From Ectocarpus siliculosus (taxonomy: Eukaryota > Sar > Phaeophyceae > Ectocarpales > Ectocarpaceae): a stretch of DNA of 64,000 nt. The stretch spans positions 62,001 through 126,000 of the forward strand of contig FN649728.1 in the NCBI GenBank assembly GCA_000310025.1, read 5' to 3'. Below the pieces are notes generated by a model that was not told the DNA's origin, ran no database searches, and saw only the letters and a program-made list of their open reading frames with translations. Positions 39,801 through 62,200 of the stretch are shown here, piece after piece. The translations under genes and the position numbers were made by a program. Position 1 is the first letter of the stretch, and each line of letters opens with the position of its first letter.

Positions 39801-42800
39801 CAATCGCTGTATGTAGAGGGTATCGACCACTAGCCAGGGCTCCCAGCCACCACCCGCGTCGGATTCGCTGCCACTGTGCTGCTGCTCTCGAAGCATAAGC
39901 TCGCACCACCGGAAGACGTCACGGAGGTTGAACTCCCAGGGAGAGCCTCTTCGCCCGTAGCGCCCAGCCGCCATCGTATCCTCTTGCACCAAGCTGCACG
40001 CCACGGCAAACGAAGTTCACATGCAAAGGTAAGCGCGAGAAAACACCCCCTTTCATCCAAGACGATCAAAGTGGTTAAAATTTGGAGTCAACCGGAGAGG
40101 CCAGGCTAAAGAGACTCACTCCTTTATATTTAATCCAGAACATCACACACCACCGGCGGTAATAGGGGTATGTATATTGACCTCACGTACCAGAGCGATG
40201 GCGGCATGTTCCGAAAGCTTTTGCCGAAGTCGTCGATAGATTGCAAAGGTGTTCCGAAAGCTCTTGCCTAAGTCGTCGATAGATTGCAAAGGTGTATAGT
40301 TGGTTCATCCTGATCGACAAGGGGTCCGGTGCCTTACTATTTTAAGGTATCAGCAAGACCGCTACCGGATCGCGAACGCAACATCCTCAGCCCGACAGGC
40401 TAATCGTGTGAGCGTAGAAGAGGAGACGACAGATCTATGTCGAGGCGTAATTTTTTGCTCGACCAGGACAGCCTAAGTCTCAACATGTTGGTCAGCGTCA
40501 AATTCATTCTGTTACCCTGAGTAGGTTTAACATTGTGTTGCAACCTTGTTACATTCCAAGGGCGCTATGGTTAAAATTGCACTGTAACCATACTGTCTTA
40601 ACACGAAATAAAGAACACAAAAACAAAACACTAGTGATCATCTTGTCAAGTTAAGCAGGTTGATCAATTCAACGTTTGTACCAACACAATCTGTGAATGC
40701 CCTGGCAGTGAGCACGTTGTTCTGGGCAAGTATCGGTAGTATTGGGTTATGGCCTTAGCCTCCGACTTCTGACAGCCTGAAAGAGACGTACATGCGCACA
40801 CCACAAGGAAAACTGTTCTTCATTCACGTCCGCCATCAAATACCTCCTTCTTGCATTATTACGAAGCGGTTGGAGAGCCGTCGGATGGGATTTCACGTTC
40901 GGGGGGTGGGTGTGTACAGAGGACGACCGACGTAGGGTTCGACCCGGCTCTCGGCAAGGTTTAGGGTTTAACCCCATCCATGCACATGGTTTAACCCCAT
41001 CCATGCACATGGGTTAGGATCGATTCCCACCCCCCATAGGGGCCAGAATGGGACGGGCGGCCAAAGTCAGAGGCAAGTCTACAACAGTTGTTCTCACGGG
41101 TAGTCGAGCAAGAACTTAGTAAACATTCAGAGGTAGACAACGTGGCTTGTTCACGTGTAGAGGAGGTCGTTTGATTGTAGTTAATCTAACGCCGCTACCT
41201 CCCTGCTTTCCAAGTATTAAAAACCCAGCAGCGGCAGATCATCACGGCGACGATGGAACGATCATTAACATCCAAAGGCCTGTTGAAGGAGACAACACTA
41301 TTTTGGTGTCAGGAGTCACCAAAAATGACCACGTGGTCACCGCAAAGGGGTGTCCTGAGTGAGAGAGGATTCACTTTGGACGAAAAAGACTCTTTTCGAC
41401 ACTACAGTATGCGTGACGGACATCATCGAGGGGCGCGTCACATAGAGGGGGGCCCAGAGCCACCTACGGAAAACGGAAGGGGCAAGAACATGGTGAATGC
41501 TGTCGTCGTAACGTACCGTACATGCAACAAGAACCACAGAACGAAACGAGTCCGCTTGAAAGGACCAGCGACAAAAACTCAAAACGGAGATATCGGAGAT
41601 CACAGCCTACGCCCAGACGAAAAACTTGGAATTTAACGGGGCATGGTTCGGAAAAAAAAGACGGGAACTCCCAGTCAATTCAGCGACTCCAGCCCTACGC
41701 AACCGTCGCTCATCACCGACTGCACAGATAGAGAGAGCAAAAGTGGAGGTGTTGATATTCGAGGACTTGGATGCATCAGAGCCATGGGGTATGGCCAGAA
41801 GCGGAAGACGAATGTGTTGTCCTCGGTCATGCTGATAGTAAATCAGCCCACGCGTTTCTCAGGCTCACTGCCGTCTCATCGACGATTTGGATTCATCCGC
41901 TGCTGTTGAGCCATTCTTTGCTGCTGAACCTCGACACTAGTCGAATCCCATAATACTTGCCAAGACGGCACACCTCTAGCGCACAACCCAAGGGCGACAA
42001 TGAGCACGTTGTGCCAAAAACTTGTGGACCGAAAAAGTTTTCGGGGTACATCAAAGCGGCTGGCATCGAAAAGCTGCGGAAGGAATCCAACAGCAGCATC
42101 TATTATAGGTAGACAACCAAAGCTGAGTTCAACTCGCCTGTTGAACGCAATCATGCGTGAGAGCATGGACGCCGCATCGCAAGGAATACATGACGATTTC
42201 TCGTTATCCTGGCTGTTGCCGTCCGTGGCCGCAATCAGAGCAGCGTCGGATGACACAGGTGATGATGATGGCGATGGCGGTGCTGCGAGGGAAGGAAACT
42301 TGTTGACCGCGATGTACAGCAGATCGTCCGGGGTGAGTGGATCCACATATACCTGTCGACACAATAAAATTGAGCGTCGCCCGAAGACAAAGTAAGAATC
42401 AAGAGACCGTACTAGTTGGGCATCGGAAAACCACAAAAAGCAAGGAGAAAGGTGCTGCCGCGGCTGTGCGAAAAAAACATATAACCTTTCGTGCGTCAAA
42501 ACGTGGAGGCAAGCCCATCTAAACATCAAAGGGCGAGATGGAGACGGACCACGCACTGATGACCCCAGTGCACTTTGTACTCTTAACAAACTGTACTCTT
42601 AACAAAGATCGACCCATCAAACATACCTTGGTGAAGCGACTGAGGAAAGATCTAGGAAGACCCTTCCTGCCACCACCTTGTCCCAGAGGATTCTGCGCCG
42701 CGAAGACCTTGAACGTCGGAGGGCATTTAAACGAACGCCCGAGCTCCGGGATGTACACCTCGGCACGGTGATCCAGGCAAGCATTAAGGCCCTCGAGCAC

Positions 42801-48800: not shown

Positions 48801-51800
48801 CCCGTCCACCCACTCGAACAGCCCCTTCGTACGCACCGCCAATGCCTTGAGCGACACAAACTCCCTCTCGAGGGCGTATTGTTCTTCCAACCCGGTACTC
48901 TCTCCAGGGGTCGGGTTAGGACCAACAACCGTGTCCTTCCTGTCTGCCGCTGCGGGAGGAGGCGGACGCTCATGGTCGTCCGAGGCACCTTGTAGTCTGG
49001 ACGACTCATCAGCCGCTGCCTTCCTCCGTTTTGCCCCTCCACTCTTCCGCCTCCGGCCGCCGGTGGACGGCTCTGCGACCGCTCTCGCCTTTACCGAAAC
49101 GACGTCAGGTCGATGGTCATTTTCGTTGGAGGCACCGACGAAGCCGTGCTTGCCGCTCACCGCACACTCGGGGGAATCAGGTTCAGGATAAGCGCGTTTC
49201 TGCTTCCGCCGATAAGCTTCTGCTGAAACCTTAGCTCCGTTCACGTCTCCGTCACCTCCCACGCCCCGGGAAGACTGTTTTTGTCGCAGTTTGGCCCACG
49301 CGGCCTGGTGCAAGAGAAATGGGGGACGATAGTTGTTCGCAAGGCCAAACACCCCCATCCGTTGACGCGAACGTGAACAGTGTAAAACCACACTACCTGG
49401 TACACGATGGCAAAGGTTGCGCCGTCTCCTGCGGTGGCCTGTTTTCCCGCCCAAAAGCGACGACAAGCCATGAAGGTCGTGCCTAATCGTCTGCATTCGG
49501 GTTAAACCAAAATCACCGACCGCGTATCGATATGTTCCAAAAAATCGAATCGTGTCTCAAGTAACGCTGTACTATACTACAGAGCCACTCGCGACCCGAT
49601 GACGACGTCTTGGACAATATCAACCACGGTCGGCATGAATCCAGACGGCTACACACGGTTATCATGAAACTTTTGATTGGGTTTACACCCGGAATCATGT
49701 TAAAAGGCTAAGGTTTCGTTGCTAGGTGGACGGGTGAAAATGAGAACCACAAACAGTACAGACAATGTAGCGGCAGCTGCTTGAGACGTGTTTTGAAATC
49801 GTGATCGCGTGACTGAACGTCCGGCGGGGCAAAGGCTATTTACGGTACAACGTCACACGATACAAGATACAAGATAAGGCCACAACCCAGGATTCGTGTT
49901 TCGTTCGCAAACATCCCATCCCCGGACACAGGAATCGCTGTGCGTCCAGGGTTAATATTTTCGCGTCAAAAAATGCACAAGCGGTATTATTTCGATGTAG
50001 TCTCAACCCAACAACACGTGCTCCTTTCTTGCCTACAAGGTGTAGTGTTCGTGCCAGAAATGAAAGTGTGGGGCGTTCGTCCAAGGCTTTACCCATGAGT
50101 TGCGTCGCCGTCGACCGCAGCTTCAGAAATTCCTCCCAAAAAGGGTTTCCTAACGACGCCGCGGGAGGCAGGCGCAGGGCGAGAGCCTAACTATACGCTC
50201 GCTCCGAATTCAATCTTGCATCCGTCACATAAAGTGTTGACCGCTCAAGATCATGGCGTGAGATCAAGAGGGAGATACCGATATGCTTCGCTGTCACGAC
50301 ATTTACTGATTGAAAAAAAACGTATAAAAAATGCGAAACGATCAACAATCAGGCTGAAGATTCGCAAACACGAGAGTAATGTTTTTTCACATGTTGAGCG
50401 AAGAGCTTCATACATCGGATCGAGACGTCGGATCCTGTACTTGTATTTCGCCCCACCTCGACACACGGAAAATCAACCGAAAGTTTCACCTGCACAGCCG
50501 CCATCAAGCCGACCACGTCGAGGTTGTCCCCAGTCCACTCCATACCATCTCCGCCTTCGTGCCCTGCCTTGGTACAACGTTCAACGAACACTTTGGCCCT
50601 ATCTCGGAGCTCCTCGACTAGGACGTCTCGACCCCTCAGCGGCCTCAGGCCGCCAAGAAGGTCAGCGGCCTCAGTGTTCTGGTGGCAGTTGACGACGTGC
50701 ATCCTGCGATCGACAACATGCAAGCAAGCAACGCACGTGCCGCGGCGACAATGGAGCGTTAGAATCCTTGGGACCTCGTATGAACGACGTTGAAATCGCA
50801 CCGGAGGCTTTCTGGTTCTCGAATCAAGGCTTCCTAACAGGGTCTAGTACGAAATACGACCACACCTGGTACTAATAGAAAAATGGCCAGCCTCCTTAAA
50901 AACAACCTATGGCGGTCACAGAGAGACTTGCTGAAAGATAAGGGTGTCCAACCTAGCACAACGCACCTACGCTGGAGCAGCATCGAGTACAGCTGGCACA
51001 CGGTCGTCTTGCCACACCCAGTAGCCCCAACGAGAAGCAGCGGCTCGATATGGCTCAGACATCGCCCGGAAAGGCGGAACAATCGTCGCATATGCCTGCA
51101 GCGCGATGGCGTAGGCGGGGAAGGAGGGGGGGGGAGGGGGGGGGGGCGCAAAGAATTGAAAACAATACGGCGTTAGAGAGAGATGGTTGAAACGGTCGAA
51201 ACACTGATGAAGCGATACGACGACGAAATGACGTTGTAACAGCTATCCCAACTCTACATCAACGAAGCTTGACGGCAGGGCTCAGTTAATGAGATTCCAC
51301 ACGGTAAATCCTCACGTGCGGCACCTCACTACAAGGGCCATAGGATACTCGCTTTTTACATCACGGCCCAGACGCCTTGTTTGAATGACACCAACTTCAA
51401 GTCCTCCAAACAAAACTCAGACAAAGCACTCTTGATCAATGGTCACCATGTTCCTCGTTCTCAACCCCAAAAGAATGTTTACAAAGGGGAAATATCGTTT
51501 AGCACGATACGATACGCACGATACGCCTCCGAGATTAGCAGCCTAATCCGATAGCACTCGGGCACGACTGCCCTCCCTACAACTCTTGGTTCGAACAAAA
51601 AAAGACGGCGGGAGACGTGGGTGGCTCAGTTAAGTAAGATTCCGTTGCGGTTTTATCCCCACCGCCGAGCCCACTACAGGCACAGCGTACGGATGTCCCT
51701 AACTTTTCGCATCACTGCCACACCACAAACCCAGTATGAACAGGACTACGCAGCAGCTTTGGCTCAAGATAGCCTCTATTGCAAAAGTATACAAAGCTTG

Positions 51801-53249
51801 GAAATCGCGGAAAAACAAGCTGTTTGTTGCAGGCAGCGCGAACGATCATCAAGACTGAAGACGGTGGATCAAGAGAGCTCAGTAAATGGTATGAGATTCC
51901 GTGTAAGTTGTCCACAACGGCGACGCACTACACGCCACCAATCGGAGTCCTTATCTTTAACGTCACAGCTCGGATAGGATCCACATACACAGCGAAAAAA
52001 GCGAACAACCTTGTTTTGGAAATCCCTGTTATATTGACTAGGAAACGTGAGACACGGAAACACTGCAGGCCGCATCGTACAGATATTTCGATTGAGAGAA
52101 ATAAGCGACATTATCTTAGGGTTACCCCCCACGGTGTTGCCAACGGGCAGTGGTCTCAACATTCGAATGTCAGCGACGTTCCTTTCTCCCAAAATGTCGA
52201 CAACGAAATTAAGCAAAGCAGCAGTAGCGTTCGGCCGCTCGCGACAGGCTGTAGGCAGCCAAATCAACAACCGGAACGTCACGCCTCCATCATCACTACA
52301 ATACACACTTAACATTCAGCCAACAAGCCAAACAAGAAAAGGCAACGTGAACGTTCGAACGGCCTCCGTCCAAACAGTATCTTATTCCACAAGTGACAAT
52401 GATAAAGGGCCAGTTCGGCCAGCCGTCCAAAATCAACCATGGGACAGAATCATTACCACTTAATACAACTGTGCTATATCCTCCTTTGCGGCACGGTACG
52501 TGTAAGTGAAATATTGCAAGGGTGTGTTCTGTAGGGTACCCACAGAAGGTACCGGCGGTATTTTTCCGGGTATTTAGCCTACAGAACGTTACAGACGAGT
52601 TCTGTGGTACTTCCGCTACCCTACTGGATACTTCTGTGAGATCTGTGGCACTTCCAATACCCTACAGAAAACGCCTATGAGTTCTGTGACGCTCCAATAC
52701 CCTACAGAAAACCTCTGTACACATTTGTTAACCTACCCGCTATGTTCTGTGAGATCTGTACGACCTTCGCACAAACCCGATTTTTTCTGTTGAGTTCTGT
52801 GGCACTGGCGATACAACACCGGATATTTCTGTAAGTTCTGTGGCACTTCCGATACCCTACAGAAACGTTCTGTGAGGTTCTGTAACCCTTTCGATACCCT
52901 ACATAATTCTTCTGTGAGTTCTGTCACACTTCAAATACCGTACCGGACGCTTCTGTGAGATCTGTGACACTTCCAATACCCTACCGGAAACTTCTGTTCG
53001 ATCTGTGACGCTGTCAATACCCTACCTACCGGGCTACGCCTGTACGCTCTATGTTCTGAGTCAGGCCCACCAACATCATGGTGAGAATGCACCGCACACA
53101 TACATACACCACACACATACACATCATTGTGAACAACCACGACGCATCTGTATCGCTGTGGAGGAGAGGGACATGAGCTCTACCTCTACCACCGCGGACC
53201 CTCCGAGCGGATCATCGATCGCTGCGAGAGGAGTCAAAGCGCGGGCAAA

Positions 53250-53286
<37 letters not shown>

Positions 53287-56200
53287 CCACCACCACCAGA
53301 ACGCGAGGGAGCGGTAGAGACAGTTGACGCGGGAGGCGGTGATGCAGGCGTGCCCGTAATCGCACCCGCAGCCGTCTACAACAAGAACGGGGAGCCGCAT
53401 GCCGTGGACGCGGCTGTGGTGAAGGCAGTCGATGACTTCACGGTGCCAGCAGGCTTTGTGAGGAAAGGGTCCCGCGAGAAGTCGTACATGTATTCGCTTC
53501 GAGTGTACATCGAGGCGTCGAGCAGCGACAAGCACCAGTTTTTCTGCATGGCCGACTCCTTGTGCCGCCGCAAGAACAAGATGATCCCCTGCAAAGGCGG
53601 CGACCACAGCAACGTCAACTCGCACCTCAAGAATGGGCACGGAGTGCAGGGGATGGGTGGCGTCGTGAAGGAAGGGAAGAGAAAGGGGCCGAAGCAAGAG
53701 CATCACGGCAAACTTCGCGGCGAGCAAGAACTCGGGTGTCGGGACGGACAGGTGTGTGCGTCAGGTTTCTCTGCTTGTTGTGTGTGTACATGTATGCATG
53801 TATGTGTGACTGCTGTACTGCAGTAGTACTCCGTGAGGAAACCTTACCTGCGCGAACCACGTAACCAACTGACTGATGTTGGTATCTCACGCTTGTCCCG
53901 TTCTCCCCTTTGCAATGCTGTGCCGATACGGTACATTGTATTGTATTTCTGTTTCTATTCGTTCCCTTTGGCAGAGTCCGTCAGCTCCTGGCTGTGAAGA
54001 TGGTCGTGGAAAAGTTTTTGCCCTTCTGTTTTTCTCATCTGGCACAACTTGGCGGGATCTCACGGGGTTGTTCATTGCCCAAGACACACCTTTTCCGGCG
54101 CTCTCGTCTCGGCGCGTCAAGCACATCCTTGTGGAGTTACCAGGGCGAACAACCGGATGCAGAGAGAGCGGGGGGGGGTGGTATATACCTGGGGTATTCA
54201 TTTGAGCAACATGCTTAAATGCCCCCCTATTTTCTGTTCTGTGACACTTGCAATACCCTACAGAACGTTACAGACGAGTTATGTCACACTTGCAATACCC
54301 TACAGAAAGCGGCTGTGAGTTCTGTCACACTTGAAAACCCTACGGACACTTCTGTGACGTCTGTGATGCTACAATACCCTACAGAAAATGTGACTTCGGC
54401 GACGCTCCAATACCCTACAGAAAACTTCTGTGAGCATTTGATAACCTACCCGCGAGGTTCTGTGAGTTCTGTACGACCTTGGCACAAACCCGATTTTTTC
54501 TGTTGAGTTCTGTGGCACTTGCGTTACAATACCGGATATTTCGGTGGGATCTGTTGCACTTTCAATACCCTACAGAAAACTTCTGCGAGTTCTGTGACAC
54601 GACAGTACAGTACAGAAAACGTCTGTAGAGATTTGTGAACCTACCCGAAATGTTCTGTGGGTTCTGTACGACCTTCTCACAAACCCGATTATATCTGTGG
54701 AGTTCTGTGACACTTCCAATACCTACCCGATAGTTCTGTGAGTTCTGTGACAACTTCGGATACCCTACAGAAAGTTACAGACCCTACAGAACATACCCTT
54801 GAAATATTGAGTGTTCCAATCTCCCGGCCAAATGTTGACGGCGTCCAGATTACAGTTATCTCCGTCAACTTCCGTGTCGGTACATACACGTAATATTTCG
54901 TGCCACCTTTGGCAGCCACTGTCACCTCCGCAGTTCCATGGTTACGGCCATGTCCGCAAGCCTAAAAAAGGTCAACAATCGCGGCACTCACTTACAGAAC
55001 GGTGGCTTGCCACAACCTTGTGGTCTTCCTCAATTTCCATTGCAACCCGCGCGGCAATCGAAATGAGGCACAACTGAGGGTAGTCGCAAACCACAGGTCG
55101 GTAGATCAGAGCCGTGATCGTTCACCTTCAATAGTGCAGGAAAAAACTCTGGGCGCAGACAGCGCCCTCTATAGTGCAGGAACCTGCCCTATTGAGGATG
55201 GACCCGTTATAGATCAGGTTGGACACACACACCGAGGGTTATTTTTTAAATGCTTTCATTTCACCATCACTCTCCTTCCTCTCATCGCGCCCAATCCCAT
55301 CATCATTTTCACAGCTATTTTAGCTCTGCGTCGTTTGTTGTGGGAAAGCTCATCGGGTGACCTTCCCCGCAACGAACGGCGAGGGCCAGAACAGAGGGAA
55401 AAATGACGATAAGACGGAACAAGCACTGCAAAACGAACTCGAGTGCAAGGTATTAGCCCGGGTTAGACATTTGCAGTCTTCTTCTGTTGCTACAGTTTAC
55501 GTTCTCCATCCGCCGAGAAAAACTAAGCCTCCCCCATGCCGCCCGCTCACGGGGCCCCAGGTAATGGCGTTTAAAAGAGTGTTCCGTTCTTAACCGCCCG
55601 GAGACTGTGGTGTGTGTATTCGTGAGAAGGTTAGCGCGGTCGATGCTAATCATGAAGACAAACCAACCCGGACAAAGACACCTGACAGTTGCAACGCAGA
55701 ACCGAGGGTACACGTGCTGCTGCAGACAACAAGCACTCTCCGCATTGCAAGGGTTTGGTTCGTGCGACAATTCAGGATGTGCAGTACTTGTAGAGTACGC
55801 GTGCAGAGGCATGATCAAATACAGACACAACATGCCACAGGGGGAAACCACACGTGTCGCGAGGAAGACTGCTCGCGCCCACGCTACCCCTTCAACCAAT
55901 TTCATACTCTGATAGCTCCGCGAACCGTGAGCGTCAAACCATGAACTCAAGCCTCTACTCAACAGTGCAGGACATGTAATATTGAGGACCTCTTCTGATT
56001 GGTGCAGGTGCCGGTTATAGAGGAGGTAAAATTTCTAGCGGCCCACCGTCACAAGCCTGACGTCATTGACTGGAATTGCTTCGACTCCCTCAATGGTACA
56101 AATGAATATCCCTATCGCTGGATAGGGCAGTGAAAGCGGCGACCAACCATCAAAAAAGACGGTAGGATGTCATCCGCTGTTGTGTTGGGTGTTGTTCGGT

Positions 56201-59200
56201 CATAGCAACGTCACAATATCGCAAGGCCACCAACCTGGTCATCGCCACTCGTTGAAGACCAGCCTCGAGACCCTCGCCCCTGTCCAGCATCGGCTCGATA
56301 ACAGCCAACTGCGAGAATCCTCCAAGATCAGACTCGTCCACTAACGAAAAATCTTCACCGGTCTCCATTGCGTTTACGGCGATGGCCTCTCCCGCGTGTT
56401 TCTGGCTGGGAGGCGGAGACGTGCCGTAGAGGCAGTCAGGATCTAACGGCACGCCGATCTGCGCAAAGCAAAACGCAGATTGCATCGAATCGTTACGACA
56501 AAAAAAATGCCAACTTGAAAAAGCAGTCAGTTCCTGACTCATGACACAGTTTGGTAACCATGTCCCCTTTAACGTACCCGACCCTCATGCTACTGACATT
56601 AGAATCTTGTTCAGGCACCACGTGCGGCTACTTACAGATAACACATGACAGATCTCAGCCGGTTCTTACGCCGCCTACCGATGTATCGAGCTTCAAACTT
56701 GTCTGTATGCGTGTGTCTGGGAGGAACCAAAAACCTAGCTTCCCGTGGCGCGACGTTGTGCAAGCAGTAAAACTCAAGAAAATGGCCATCGGTGTCACTC
56801 ATACTCCGTCAGGCGCAAGTTTCGACGGCCTTACATGATGTCCAGGGCCGCTGGCCCAACTCATCATGTTTGTCAGAATACCTTAAGATCGTAACACTCA
56901 ACGGGATCATCTCGAAACTTGACTATTCCTTGTTCGGCAATGAATGATCACGTTTCGGGATCACCCGGTTGAGGGTTGCGACCTTGCGGCACTGCTGACA
57001 ACCAGGGTGAGTTGACCAAGCCGTCCACGCGGGTATATCCTAGGTCGTCGAAACTTTTGGGTGGCAACGCATGGGTGAATTCAGACCATTCGATGTAGTA
57101 ACATTGTGGATAGTGTGAGAATCCTGTTTACCAAGCGCAGCTGCCGCTGTGTGCGTTGTGTGTGTTCTCGATACGGCTTTCCCTGCTTTACGTTCCCAAC
57201 GAATCGGACCGGGTGGCGGTTGATTTCGTTGTCTGCGCCGGAACAAGGGTTGATAATGCACGGTACCGAGGAACAACCCGTTTGGCTGGCATTCCTCCGA
57301 CCGTTTTCAAAACTATCCCCAAGAGCATGCGCTTCGGATCTCCAACAAAGGAGGTCAGTACACCAGGTGCTCTAGCACCGTGAGTTTCAACACACATATT
57401 TCAAAAGCAAAACCACGTGCTCCCTTAAGAGCAAGTGCCGACATTGTTCCACGTGGGCAACAGCACGACTACGTCGTTTATATCGACGTCGCACGTCACT
57501 GAATTTTCATTACAGCGATGCATTCAACGGTGCACCATGTTGAGAACGATTGACCAAAGCGGTGGCCATTCATACGACACAACCCGTGTTTCTTGCATTC
57601 GTCCGACAGTTTCCGAAACTTTTTCCCCAAGAATACGCCCTTCGGCTCTGACACAGGATGAAAGTACACAAGGTGCTCCAGCACCGTGTGTTCCACCACC
57701 ATCCATCTCGAGCAATCGGACGTGCTCCCAGAGCAAGTAGAAACATCGTTTGGCGTGGACAACAGCACGACTACTTGACCAAAGCGGTCGGGGTTCATAC
57801 GAATCAATCTGTGTTTATTGTATTGTTGTTCAACAGTTTCCGACAGTTTCCCCAACAACGTACCCAAAGGTTACGAGTCAGCGCACAGGGGTGCGAGCTA
57901 TTTTCAAAGCGTAATTTCTCTACAACCAGAGGAGGTTACCACTGTCGAATAGGGCAGTTTTGGAAGAATCTCGTCGAGAGCTTTCCTGAGAAGTATTGGT
58001 GGGCGCTCGCACGCTTGGGGTTAGCGATATATTACGCTTTGAAACTCGATCGCACCCGTGTGCGCTGACTCCCAACCTTACGGTATCCTCGTTCTTGTGC
58101 GCCTCACACACTGACACAAGGTGCTCTGGCACCGTATGCCAGTACATGAGGAGGGAATCAACGAGGAACGTGCTGTTGGACAAGCTGGAGATAACGCTTC
58201 ACGAGAACAGCAACACGGCGGTAACCTGTGAAGCCATCTAGTGGAACATATATATATACATGTATCGATCATAGGCGGGGCGAACGCGTGCCCGGCGAAA
58301 AATCAGCGTGCTACATCGCGGCTTGGAGGGGATGCGAGGTCAGTGGTCGAAGCACCACCGGATGACCGACTATTGAGTTTTGTCAACAGCAGAACGTGTT
58401 CCCCAAGCCGTTGCGGAAATTGTTTGACGAGGAAAACAACGCCGCTATGTCGTTTAAAGCGATGTGGTACGCAACTGAATCTTTCCTGTGCATCGGCGCA
58501 TTCAGCGGTGCAAAAAATTGATCAAAACAGTCATCAAAAGCGGTCCGTATTCACACGAAACAACTCGCGCTGCATGAATTCGTCCGACCGTCTGCGAAAC
58601 TTTCCACAAGAACACGCCCTTCCTCAAGAGCTGGAGCACCGCGCCTGCTAGCGCCATGAAGAAACCAAAGCAGAATCACGAACTCCCAGAGCAAGTACAA
58701 AAATCATTTGAGGAGGGCAACAGCACGGCTTCTTCGTTTGAGGCGCCGTCGAACGTCATCTTACAGTGTATCTTGCTGAGAGCATCCGACCAAAACGGTC
58801 GGCGGTCATACGCAACACCCCGTTTCACTTGATTTCATCAGACAGTTTTTGAAACTTGCCCAAAAAAACGCGACGTTCGGCTCTGACACAGGATGCCATT
58901 GCACATGGTGCGCAAGCACCGTGTGTTCTAGCACTCTGAATCGTAAGCAGAGCGACGTGCTCCCAGAACAACGGCAAAAATTGTTTGACGAGGGCAGCAG
59001 TGCGGCTGTGTCGTTTGAAGCGACGTCGTCTCATCAAAAAAAATCGTCGGTGGGTAAAACGATACACCATGTTGCTGAAAACATTTGACCGACGCCATCA
59101 GCATTTAAACTATATGAAACGGTGCACGATATTGATGAAACCATTTGATCGAAGCCATCAGCATTCGTACGCAACATCCCGTGTTCCTTGTATTGGTCCA

Positions 59201-62200
59201 ACAGTATCCGATATTTTCCCCAACAACAAGGCACCTCACACACTTGACACAAGGCTTTCTGGCAGCGTATGCCACGAGGAGGGGAACAACGAGGAACGCG
59301 ATGTTGGACAAGCTGCGGATGTCGTTTCACAAGAATAACAACAGATATTGTGCAACAAATGTATATCGATCACAAGCGGGGCGAACGCCCCCCCCCCCAC
59401 CCGTATGCCCACCATCCCCCCAGCCACCCTACTCTCCCGCCCTTGCTGCGGAAATGTGAGAACCTGCCCCGGTGAGAAATCACCGGCACGTGTTGTTCAG
59501 GCGTGAAAGAAATGATGCAGATATACGTTGTCGCGTACCTGCTCTTCGAGTACGGCTCTCATGGCGGCCTTCTCTTCCGCGCTTCGCAGCCGCTCGGCCA
59601 GCAGCATGTACCTGTCACCAGACAACCAACGGTGGGGAATCCACCCATCAAATTTCCAACTTTGAAATGACGCCAACATCGAGGCCCGAAGGTAACTGTA
59701 CGGCACGATGAGAACACCGCCTAGTACCTTCGACATCATCTGACAGGATTCGGCGACCTTACCCTTCCTCCGCCAGCTGCTGCTTCCCCTGTGGTTTCCG
59801 GCCGGCCCACCGGAGGAGGTCGCGCGGAGAAATCGCGCCGTGTTTTCCCAAGAAAAGCCGGCTGCTTTGACGTTGAGCCTGCTCACGGACAAAATTTAGC
59901 GTCACAAGAGAGGCGAATGATCAGTAACATCCTAGACACGATCAACATCAACGATCAATTTGCACCACTACCAAACGTGATATGTTACATGACCTACAAA
60001 GTGACCAAAACCGTGCTTTTTCCGAAAACAACTGTTCACCCTTAGGGTACCTAACGTACAAGAGTGCAAGGCGAGTCGCACATCCGTTCACCTGAAGCTC
60101 GTGAAGCACCTTGACGAGCAGCTTGCAATGACTCGGCGGGAGGCCACAGCGTTCGGCAAGGATGATTTCCCACTCTGCGCCCGGAATATCATCAACATGC
60201 ACCTGAAAACAAAACGCACGTCACGCATCGGTAAAAGAGCGAGCTCCGTCAAGATTCAACAGATGTCATGTTCTAAGCAACACAACGTTCAAACCCCCCC
60301 AAAAAAAAATGTGCAACTACATGGACTCCAAGGAAGGCAATATTTTGGACCTAAAAGAACCACACAAGAAAACAATTCGATACTTTTATCGTTGAAACTA
60401 CTCGAAATGCTAACACGATGGCGTAGTCTTTTACACACCACATAATCCGAACCAGACCAAAAAATTTCGCACCGTTGGGTACTATTAATAACGCGATAAC
60501 GGGAGTGCTGCAGGAAAACACCAATTGATTTTAAGTACCTCCATGAAACGATTCCTGAAGGCGCGGGAAAGCGGCTTGCGGCCACCGTAAGCGCCGGGAG
60601 GGTTTTGTGTGGCAAACAGGCGAAAGTTGGGGTGGGGCTTGATTGTCTCCTGGGTCTCCGACAGGTACAGCTCGCGGTTGTGGTCAAGAAGTCGGTTCAG
60701 GGCCTCCAGGACCTGAGGGGAAAGTCATATCCGTAAACACCAGGGGCAACTTTTAGTCAACCCGTTCCAGCCAAGCGACAGCGTTTCTACCAAAGGCTCC
60801 ATGCACGTCCACTGATAAAAAATGTCTCAAACAAACTTCGACTTTTCTCAGCGTCAACGGGATTGTCAATGTTTGCCATTACAGGGTAAAACAACTACGT
60901 ATAATACTTACCTCGGAAGGAGCCAGGTTGAGCTCATCCAAGATGATCCAGTAGCCCTTCCGGAGGGATTCAACAAGGACGCCCTGCAAGGAAAAAGACA
61001 TGCACACATCACATTTTAGGTATGGTTATCACACGTTGGTATGTTGTGGGGAACAAACTGGTTGCTCTGCAAACAGAATAAAAAAACACTGTTACCGTTC
61101 GATCAGAATCAACCGATCACCCTCTGGCTTGGCGGGGTCGGCTCTTTCAGGTTCAAGACATGGTCGGTCCTGTTTGGGGAAAGAAGATTGTTCATCACCT
61201 CGAGAGGGGCATTGAAACTAAGATATAACCCAGAAACACATCACAGCGGTACCGATGTCCAAAAACAACGTTCTCGCGCTACAGCCTAGAAGATGCAAGG
61301 CGGAGTTCATGTCCAATTTTCAGCAAAAAATTTGGCATGATTACCTTATGAATCACTTCAACAACAGAAACAGTACGTGATAGCCCAACTTTTTTGCTCG
61401 ATCAGAATCAACCGAACACCCTCTGGCTTGGCGGGGTCGGCTCTTTCAGGCTCAAGACATGGTCGGTCCTGTTTGGGGAAAGAAGATTTCTCATCACCTC
61501 GTGCAATGCATTAAAACAGCGAAAGAAAACAAGACAAAAACGGAACATGAGGGCACTTGTTACAGTCCAGTAGACCCGAAAAGGCTATGAACAAATCTCG
61601 TAAGTCCTGCTCCGCAGTTCACCATCATGTCAGCCCTTCTCGTTAAAGAAGCCTACTTCCATCAAAAGCAGAGACCATGAGTTCCTGACGCTATCATAAT
61701 CCTTCGCTCTCAACACGTCTTGCTCCCTAGTAAAACGTTACAATAACCGTTCTCAGAGATGAGGCTTTCACGAACAAAAGACGCTAGGGCTCTTTCGAAA
61801 AAAATCGTCTGTTGTAAGAGATATGAATCAGTACCTAAAAAAATACTAGCGACCACAGCGTGTAGCACCGTGCCAACAAACCCTCGTCGATCGTCACAAC
61901 CGTATGATACAACTCCTAATCGCGCTAGGCTTTCGCTCGATCAGAATCAACCGAACACCCTCTGGCTTGGCGGGGTCGGCTCTTTCAGGTTCAAGACATG
62001 GTCGGTCCTGTTTGGGGAAAGAAGATTTCTCATCACCTCGAGCCACGAATATTAGTAGTTCCTACAAACGTTACAACGCACCTAGGCGCGGGGAAGCAAT
62101 TTTTCAACATTTTTCAAACGACAATCTCTACACCCAAACAATCCTACACTCAGACACGCTGTTGGGTTCAACGTCAAGGCAGAGAGGGTGTGGCAATCGG

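Follow-up and report, generated by a model that had tools for sequence, protein, structure and literature searches.

The element studied here is, judging from its sequence, an internally deleted, non-autonomous hAT transposon. It very probably arose by internal deletion of an autonomous hAT, was mobilised in trans and inserted recently into an intron of the midasin gene (MDN1), with an 8-bp duplication of the target. A slight reservation attaches to this explanation, since no database match supports the exon upstream of the insert. The coupling between the end and array sequences of the family, and its target preference, are the points that deserve further attention. The window, which is the whole 64-kb stretch of DNA that was analysed, corresponds to C3:62001-126000 of a 189-Mb genome in 492 contigs.

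Boundaries of the element

The sequence-only reading had proposed that an exact 8-bp duplication and near-perfect terminal inverted repeats (TIRs) delimit the element to the base, and this was confirmed. The target-site duplication (TSD) AAATATTG is exact at both borders, the 21-bp TIRs are complementary at 20 of 21 positions, with one mismatch, and the element between the duplications is 2,285 bp long.

52509..52516, no strand: left target-site duplication, AAATATTG
52517..54801, plus strand: non-autonomous hAT element, 2,285 bp
52517..52537, plus strand: left TIR, CAAGGGTGTGTTCTGTAGGGT
54781..54801, minus strand: right TIR, ACCCTACAGAACATACCCTTG
54802..54809, no strand: right target-site duplication, AAATATTG

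The TIRs are as short as those of hAT elements, with the tip CAAGGGTGTG. When up to two mismatches were allowed, the terminal 21-mer had at least 56 matches in the genome, sister families included, and the reversed pattern, used as a control, had none; its recurrence is therefore not due to chance. The element had also been called complete-ended, which is true of its ends but not of its interior, the latter being deleted as in a non-autonomous derivative.

Copies of the family, target-site duplications and age

A search for other copies with 8-bp TSDs had been suggested as a check on the element. Searching the genome with the element gave 60 matches, including seven further near-full-length copies. 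The 90-93% identities returned by this search count gaps; over ungapped columns, the seven copies were 95.1-98.9% identical to the window copy (L001 98.9%, L002 97.8%, L003 98.0%, L004 97.2%, L005 97.0%, L006 97.3% and L007 95.1%), and L002 and L003 were 99.8% identical to each other. Over 2,275 columns, each with at least five other letters, 14 substitutions are private to the window copy, counted where the other copies were unanimous. With its nearest relative 98.9% identical and so few private substitutions, the window copy is young, in agreement with the earlier description of the insertion as fairly recent.

Both flanks were compared in 14 copies: the window copy, L001-L006, L008, L010, L024 and the sister elements L027-L030. 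Exact 8-bp TSDs, differing in their letters, were present in six of them (the window copy, L003, L005, L006 and the sisters L029 and L030), the six duplications being AAATATTG, AAACATTT, AAAAATTC, CAACAGTT, CAATATAG and GAATATTC. The remaining eight had no exact TSD: L027 was one base off, L001 and L004 differed by a one-base indel, L008 comes within one base only when the damage to its left tip is counted as a deletion, and the flanks of L002, L010, L024 and L028 did not match as a TSD. L007, with a damaged left end and a right end running into N, stood outside this comparison. One short element, L045, has both ends.

Coding remnant

The interior of the element retains parts of two transposase exons.

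53173..53751, plus strand: transposase exon 1 remnant, frameshifted past the finger, then GT (start and splice site placed by eye)
53545..53640, plus strand: BED-like finger, C-x5-C ... H-x4-H, within exon 1 (motif read from the sequence)
53975..54166, plus strand: transposase exon 2 remnant, with a one-base gap common to L001 (splice site placed by eye)

Exon 1 is homologous to the first exon of a hAT transposase-like gene on C30 (L015, C30:2076500-2085500, minus strand). This gene has four open exons, the others being exon 2, a 482-residue exon and a last exon which matches PF05699 (E 2.8e-5, above the curated cut-off). Exon 1 was 61-69% identical to the C30 exon in the five copies that aligned in one piece (L001, L008, L004, the window copy and L006), and it was 28% identical, a weak similarity (E 0.002-0.007), to exons at C17, C25 and C27 that precede PF05699 matches by about 2 kb. 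The hAT identity first proposed for the element is thus upheld both by same-end copies with different 8-bp TSDs and by the homology of exon 1 to the first exon of a PF05699 gene.

The later exons of L015 had no DNA match in the element, which retains exons 1 and 2 only. As these are frameshifted and the later exons are unmatched, the element cannot supply its own transposase. A hAT transposase combines a BED finger with a C-terminal dimerisation domain. The BED-like finger of the element was not recognised in a Pfam search, and an AlphaFold model of its exon, built from the single sequence, had a mean pLDDT of 35 and was left unused.

Exon 1 aligned in one frame in L001, L004 and L008 and required two frames in L002, L003, L005, L007 and L009, and several copies, the window's included, have frameshifts in exon 1 or 2. 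The pN/pS ratios among copies ranged from 0.32 to 5.93 where defined, giving no consistent sign of selection on the retained exons. The frameshifts and the scattered ratios fit coding remnants that are passively carried. Truncated products of the P element act as repressors of transposition, and the retained BED-like exon could likewise encode a short DNA-binding protein with this role; several copies, among them the window copy, L001, L004 and L008, have an open finger frame, and pN/pS against the C30 exon is 0.47-0.59. However, the latter value may reflect only constraint in the autonomous ancestor, and with the frameshifts and the among-copy ratios also against it, we consider a repressor very unlikely.

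Search for an autonomous partner and other hAT loci

An autonomous copy with these ends (CAAGGGTGTGTTCTG) was not found, as none of the at least 56 TIR matches was near any of the at least 24 PF05699 matches. The surroundings of 14 of these PF05699 matches were taken, and 13 were scanned for TIRs with TSDs. L027, a 4.8-kb element with sister ends, had no open frame of more than 222 codons. Within 21 kb around the C30 gene there was neither a TIR pair flanking the gene nor an array of the family; the region did contain four isolated hits to the 10-bp TIR tip, each with one mismatch, a sister motif seen once, also with one mismatch, and, about 6 kb off, an unrelated 46-bp array. The 482-residue exon of this gene had one match in the genome, itself, and L015 is either an old copy without its ends or a domesticated transposase.

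That no copy in the assembly was found joining these ends to a hAT transposase could also be explained by an element of another superfamily with 8-bp TSDs, which had captured its exons from a host hAT gene. Such an origin is highly improbable, as the TIR, the 8-bp TSD, the subterminal repeats and a pair of transposase exons that follow each other as in the gene all fit a hAT without any capture.

Other hAT loci were encountered in the same genome. L039 (75-5764) and L040 (3214-8908) belong to another hAT family, with the TIR TTGGCCCGGCC, PF05699 inside, exact 8-bp TSDs (GTCATGGG and ATACACAG) and 21-bp arrays near one end. In L033 (3539-7313) and L035 (3819-7595), two more putative hAT elements, PF05699 is enclosed by exact 11-bp TIRs and exact TSDs (GCACAAGT and GTAGGAGG); they come from a TIR and TSD scan of 13 loci whose shuffled control produced 2 hits. 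L016, L017 and L018 form a hAT-like family of about 4.5 kb with copies 95-98% identical; L016 and L018 have a 42-bp array near the right end, and in L016, the copy examined for both domains, PF05699 was barely over the cut-off and zf-BED far under it. The genome also contains 87 matches to PF00504 (chlorophyll-binding protein), so the host is photosynthetic; given its kilobase introns as well, it is probably a brown alga or a relative of that group.

The host gene and its intron

Minus-strand frames at about 59.5-61 kb and 51.1-48.2 kb of the window matched midasin collinearly among PDB chains (whole-query E 1.5e-78 and 1.2e-73). The high-coordinate side covers 1084-1170, 1169-1214 and 1228-1283 of 6i27_A, and the low-coordinate side covers 1298-1344, 1339-1371, 1420-1477 and 1486-1516. 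Two of these stretches are weak singly (1228-1283, i-Evalue 11; 1339-1371, i-Evalue 1.4) and are backed by their order and their neighbours. As midasin exons flank it collinearly, at about 59.5 kb on one side and 51.1 kb on the other, the element is inside the midasin gene.

51096..56234, minus strand: predicted midasin (MDN1) intron, GT-AG, 5,139 bp; no database match to its upstream exon itself

This exon, which starts at 56235 and runs to higher coordinates, gave no match of its own in the PDB search. It is predicted because its frame is open, a GT is present and it joins in frame (...LQRVAMT/RHMRRLFRLSGRCLSHIEPLLLVGATGCGKTT) with the GCATATG exon at 51095. Assuming this exon, the intron is 5,139 bp long with the insert and 2,846 bp without its 2,293 bp, matching the 2.85 kb or so that had been expected on removal of the element; if the exon were dropped, the midasin intron would extend to about 59.5 kb. 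The transposase remnant is on the plus strand and midasin on the minus strand, so that the element is antisense to the gene, as had been noted. The midasin intron would be spliced with the element still inside.

The sequence-only reading had correctly placed the insertion between midasin exons, but it overrated the surprise that splicing should tolerate it, since intronic transposable elements (TEs) are common in brown algae, the group to which the host probably belongs or is related. For Ectocarpus, PMC12477816 gives TEs a 20.1% share of intronic sequence and counts a genic insertion in 81% of genes. The insertion itself is therefore ordinary. When an empty site was sought within the same assembly with the joined flanks, the only matches were the two halves of the filled site.

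Degenerate repeated units were observed in midasin introns at 57428-59217 and 61068-62050 of the window: a 71-nt unit in five copies, 277-674 bp apart and 62-73% identical to the reference copy, and a 145-nt unit in three copies (79 and 88%). At 40207-40295 of the window there is a 43-bp unit in 2.1 copies (95%).

Subterminal arrays and their coupling to the ends

Arrays of units repeated head-to-tail are present at both ends of the element.

52597..53029, plus strand: left subterminal array, mostly 41-bp units, core ACCCTACAGAA, interrupted at about 52713-52784
54236..54773, plus strand: right subterminal array, 41/42-bp units with a 195-bp higher-order unit, in the same orientation as the left array

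Reverse-complementing the inner half of the left TIR gives the 11-bp core ACCCTACAGAA. Allowing one mismatch at most, the 64-kb window has 13 occurrences of this core, all within the element, with 0.74 expected. The array cores share one direction, the left TIR excepted, in the window copy and in each of L001-L006; read inwards from the tips, past the TIR, the sites are antisense at the left end and sense at the right.

Coupling between ends and arrays was assessed in 28 termini, 20 of which could be assigned to three classes by their inner motif (ACCCTACAGAA, ACCTTACCGAA or ACCCTACCGAA). For these 20 classified termini, from three families, 54 of the 55 exact motif copies in the elements matched the motif of their own end, in a set whose rows are related by descent and include two overlapping rows of L029. 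When the labels were shuffled 20,000 times, the count averaged 20.2 and never exceeded 47. Five of the 20 had no exact copy of their own motif. The eight termini with other inner motifs were left out (L025, L028_R, L050-L053, L055 and L056); none of them has an exact own-motif copy, and copies of another family's motif occur in L028_R (two), L056 (one) and L025 (one).

That end and array co-vary between sister families, with 54 of 55 motif copies fitting their own end, suggests that they are transposase binding sites. By likeness to the subterminal repeats of Hermes and Ac/Ds, the BED-like finger of the transposase would recognise the core ACCCTACAGAA, which recurs in the TIRs and both arrays. 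A full transposase acting in trans could then mobilise the non-autonomous element left by internal deletion of an autonomous hAT, and cut-and-paste would have brought it into the midasin intron, making the 8-bp duplication on recent entry.

The arrays could instead be passive tandem duplications of TIR-proximal sequence that bind no transposase. Their units are head-to-tail and variable, and common descent of the families alone could yield agreement between TIR and array. We think this rather unlikely, given that the agreement extends to two variable positions in three families and that Hermes has subterminal repeats bound by its BED domain (PMC10368747). Binding of the arrays by the transposase is the reading we prefer. 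Helical phasing of the arrays was considered from spacings of 41/42, 84, 21 and 63 bp at several hAT loci and was rejected, as the same element also has spacings of 154, 188 and 195 bp; spacings of 18, 22 and 24 bp at other loci contradict it further.

Target-site preference

The hAT Ac group generally prefers the target nTnnnnAn. We compared 28 left flanks from the sampled termini, many of them considered at this one end only, with two neighbouring control positions. The palindromic pattern nAANNTTn was found in 11 of 28 left flanks (controls 0 and 0 of 28) and nnnTAnnn in 4 of 28 (controls 0 and 2 of 28). The Hermes and Ac-group preference nTnnnnAn was not followed, with 0 of 28 (controls 0 and 3 of 28). 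Among the six exact TSDs, four fit nAANNTTn, three nnnTAnnn and none nTnnnnAn.

The described targets are nTnnnnAn for Hermes (PMC10368747) and nnnTAnnn for Buster (PMC3517528), and the preference of the Tip group is left uninvestigated according to PMC3942097. Tentatively, and with some doubt, the family could represent a hAT lineage that falls into neither the Ac nor the Buster target class as described, with the palindromic target nAANNTTn and with a BED-like finger and 11-bp TIR and array sites that co-evolved in each family. This reading is made somewhat less probable by the fact that half of the exact TSDs also fit nnnTAnnn.

Comparison with known systems

The value of this family is that end and array sequences vary in parallel among close relatives within one genome, so that the rules by which a hAT finger chooses its sites, and those of target choice, could be tested by comparison. 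In its few copies, and possibly in having a related host, the family resembles the hAT families already counted in Ectocarpus, a likeness of published counts and not of sequences; the table row in PMC12477816, "DNA/hAT 4 128 13 0.05%", is read here as families, copies, intact copies and genome share.

Like the Ds-del, Ds2 and Ds-l3 classes of maize Ac/Ds, as described in PMC3260210, the element combines an 8-bp TSD, a short TIR, a deletion in the transposase gene and repeated subterminal transposase sites, putative ones in its own case. The Ac sites are AAACGG hexamers, whereas the putative sites of the element are an 11-bp core, present also in the TIR, in mostly 41-bp tandem units. In housefly Hermes, one copy of the subterminal repeat lies inside the right TIR, the left repeats STR2-STR7 are antisense and the right repeats STR1-STR5 are sense (PMC10368747). 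This is the same repeat polarity as in the element, if "sense" in that paper is taken from the tip inwards. The two differ in that Hermes has the motif AAG(T/C) and the target nTnnnnAn (PMC10368747), whereas the element has ACCCTACAGAA in both TIRs and nAANNTTn.
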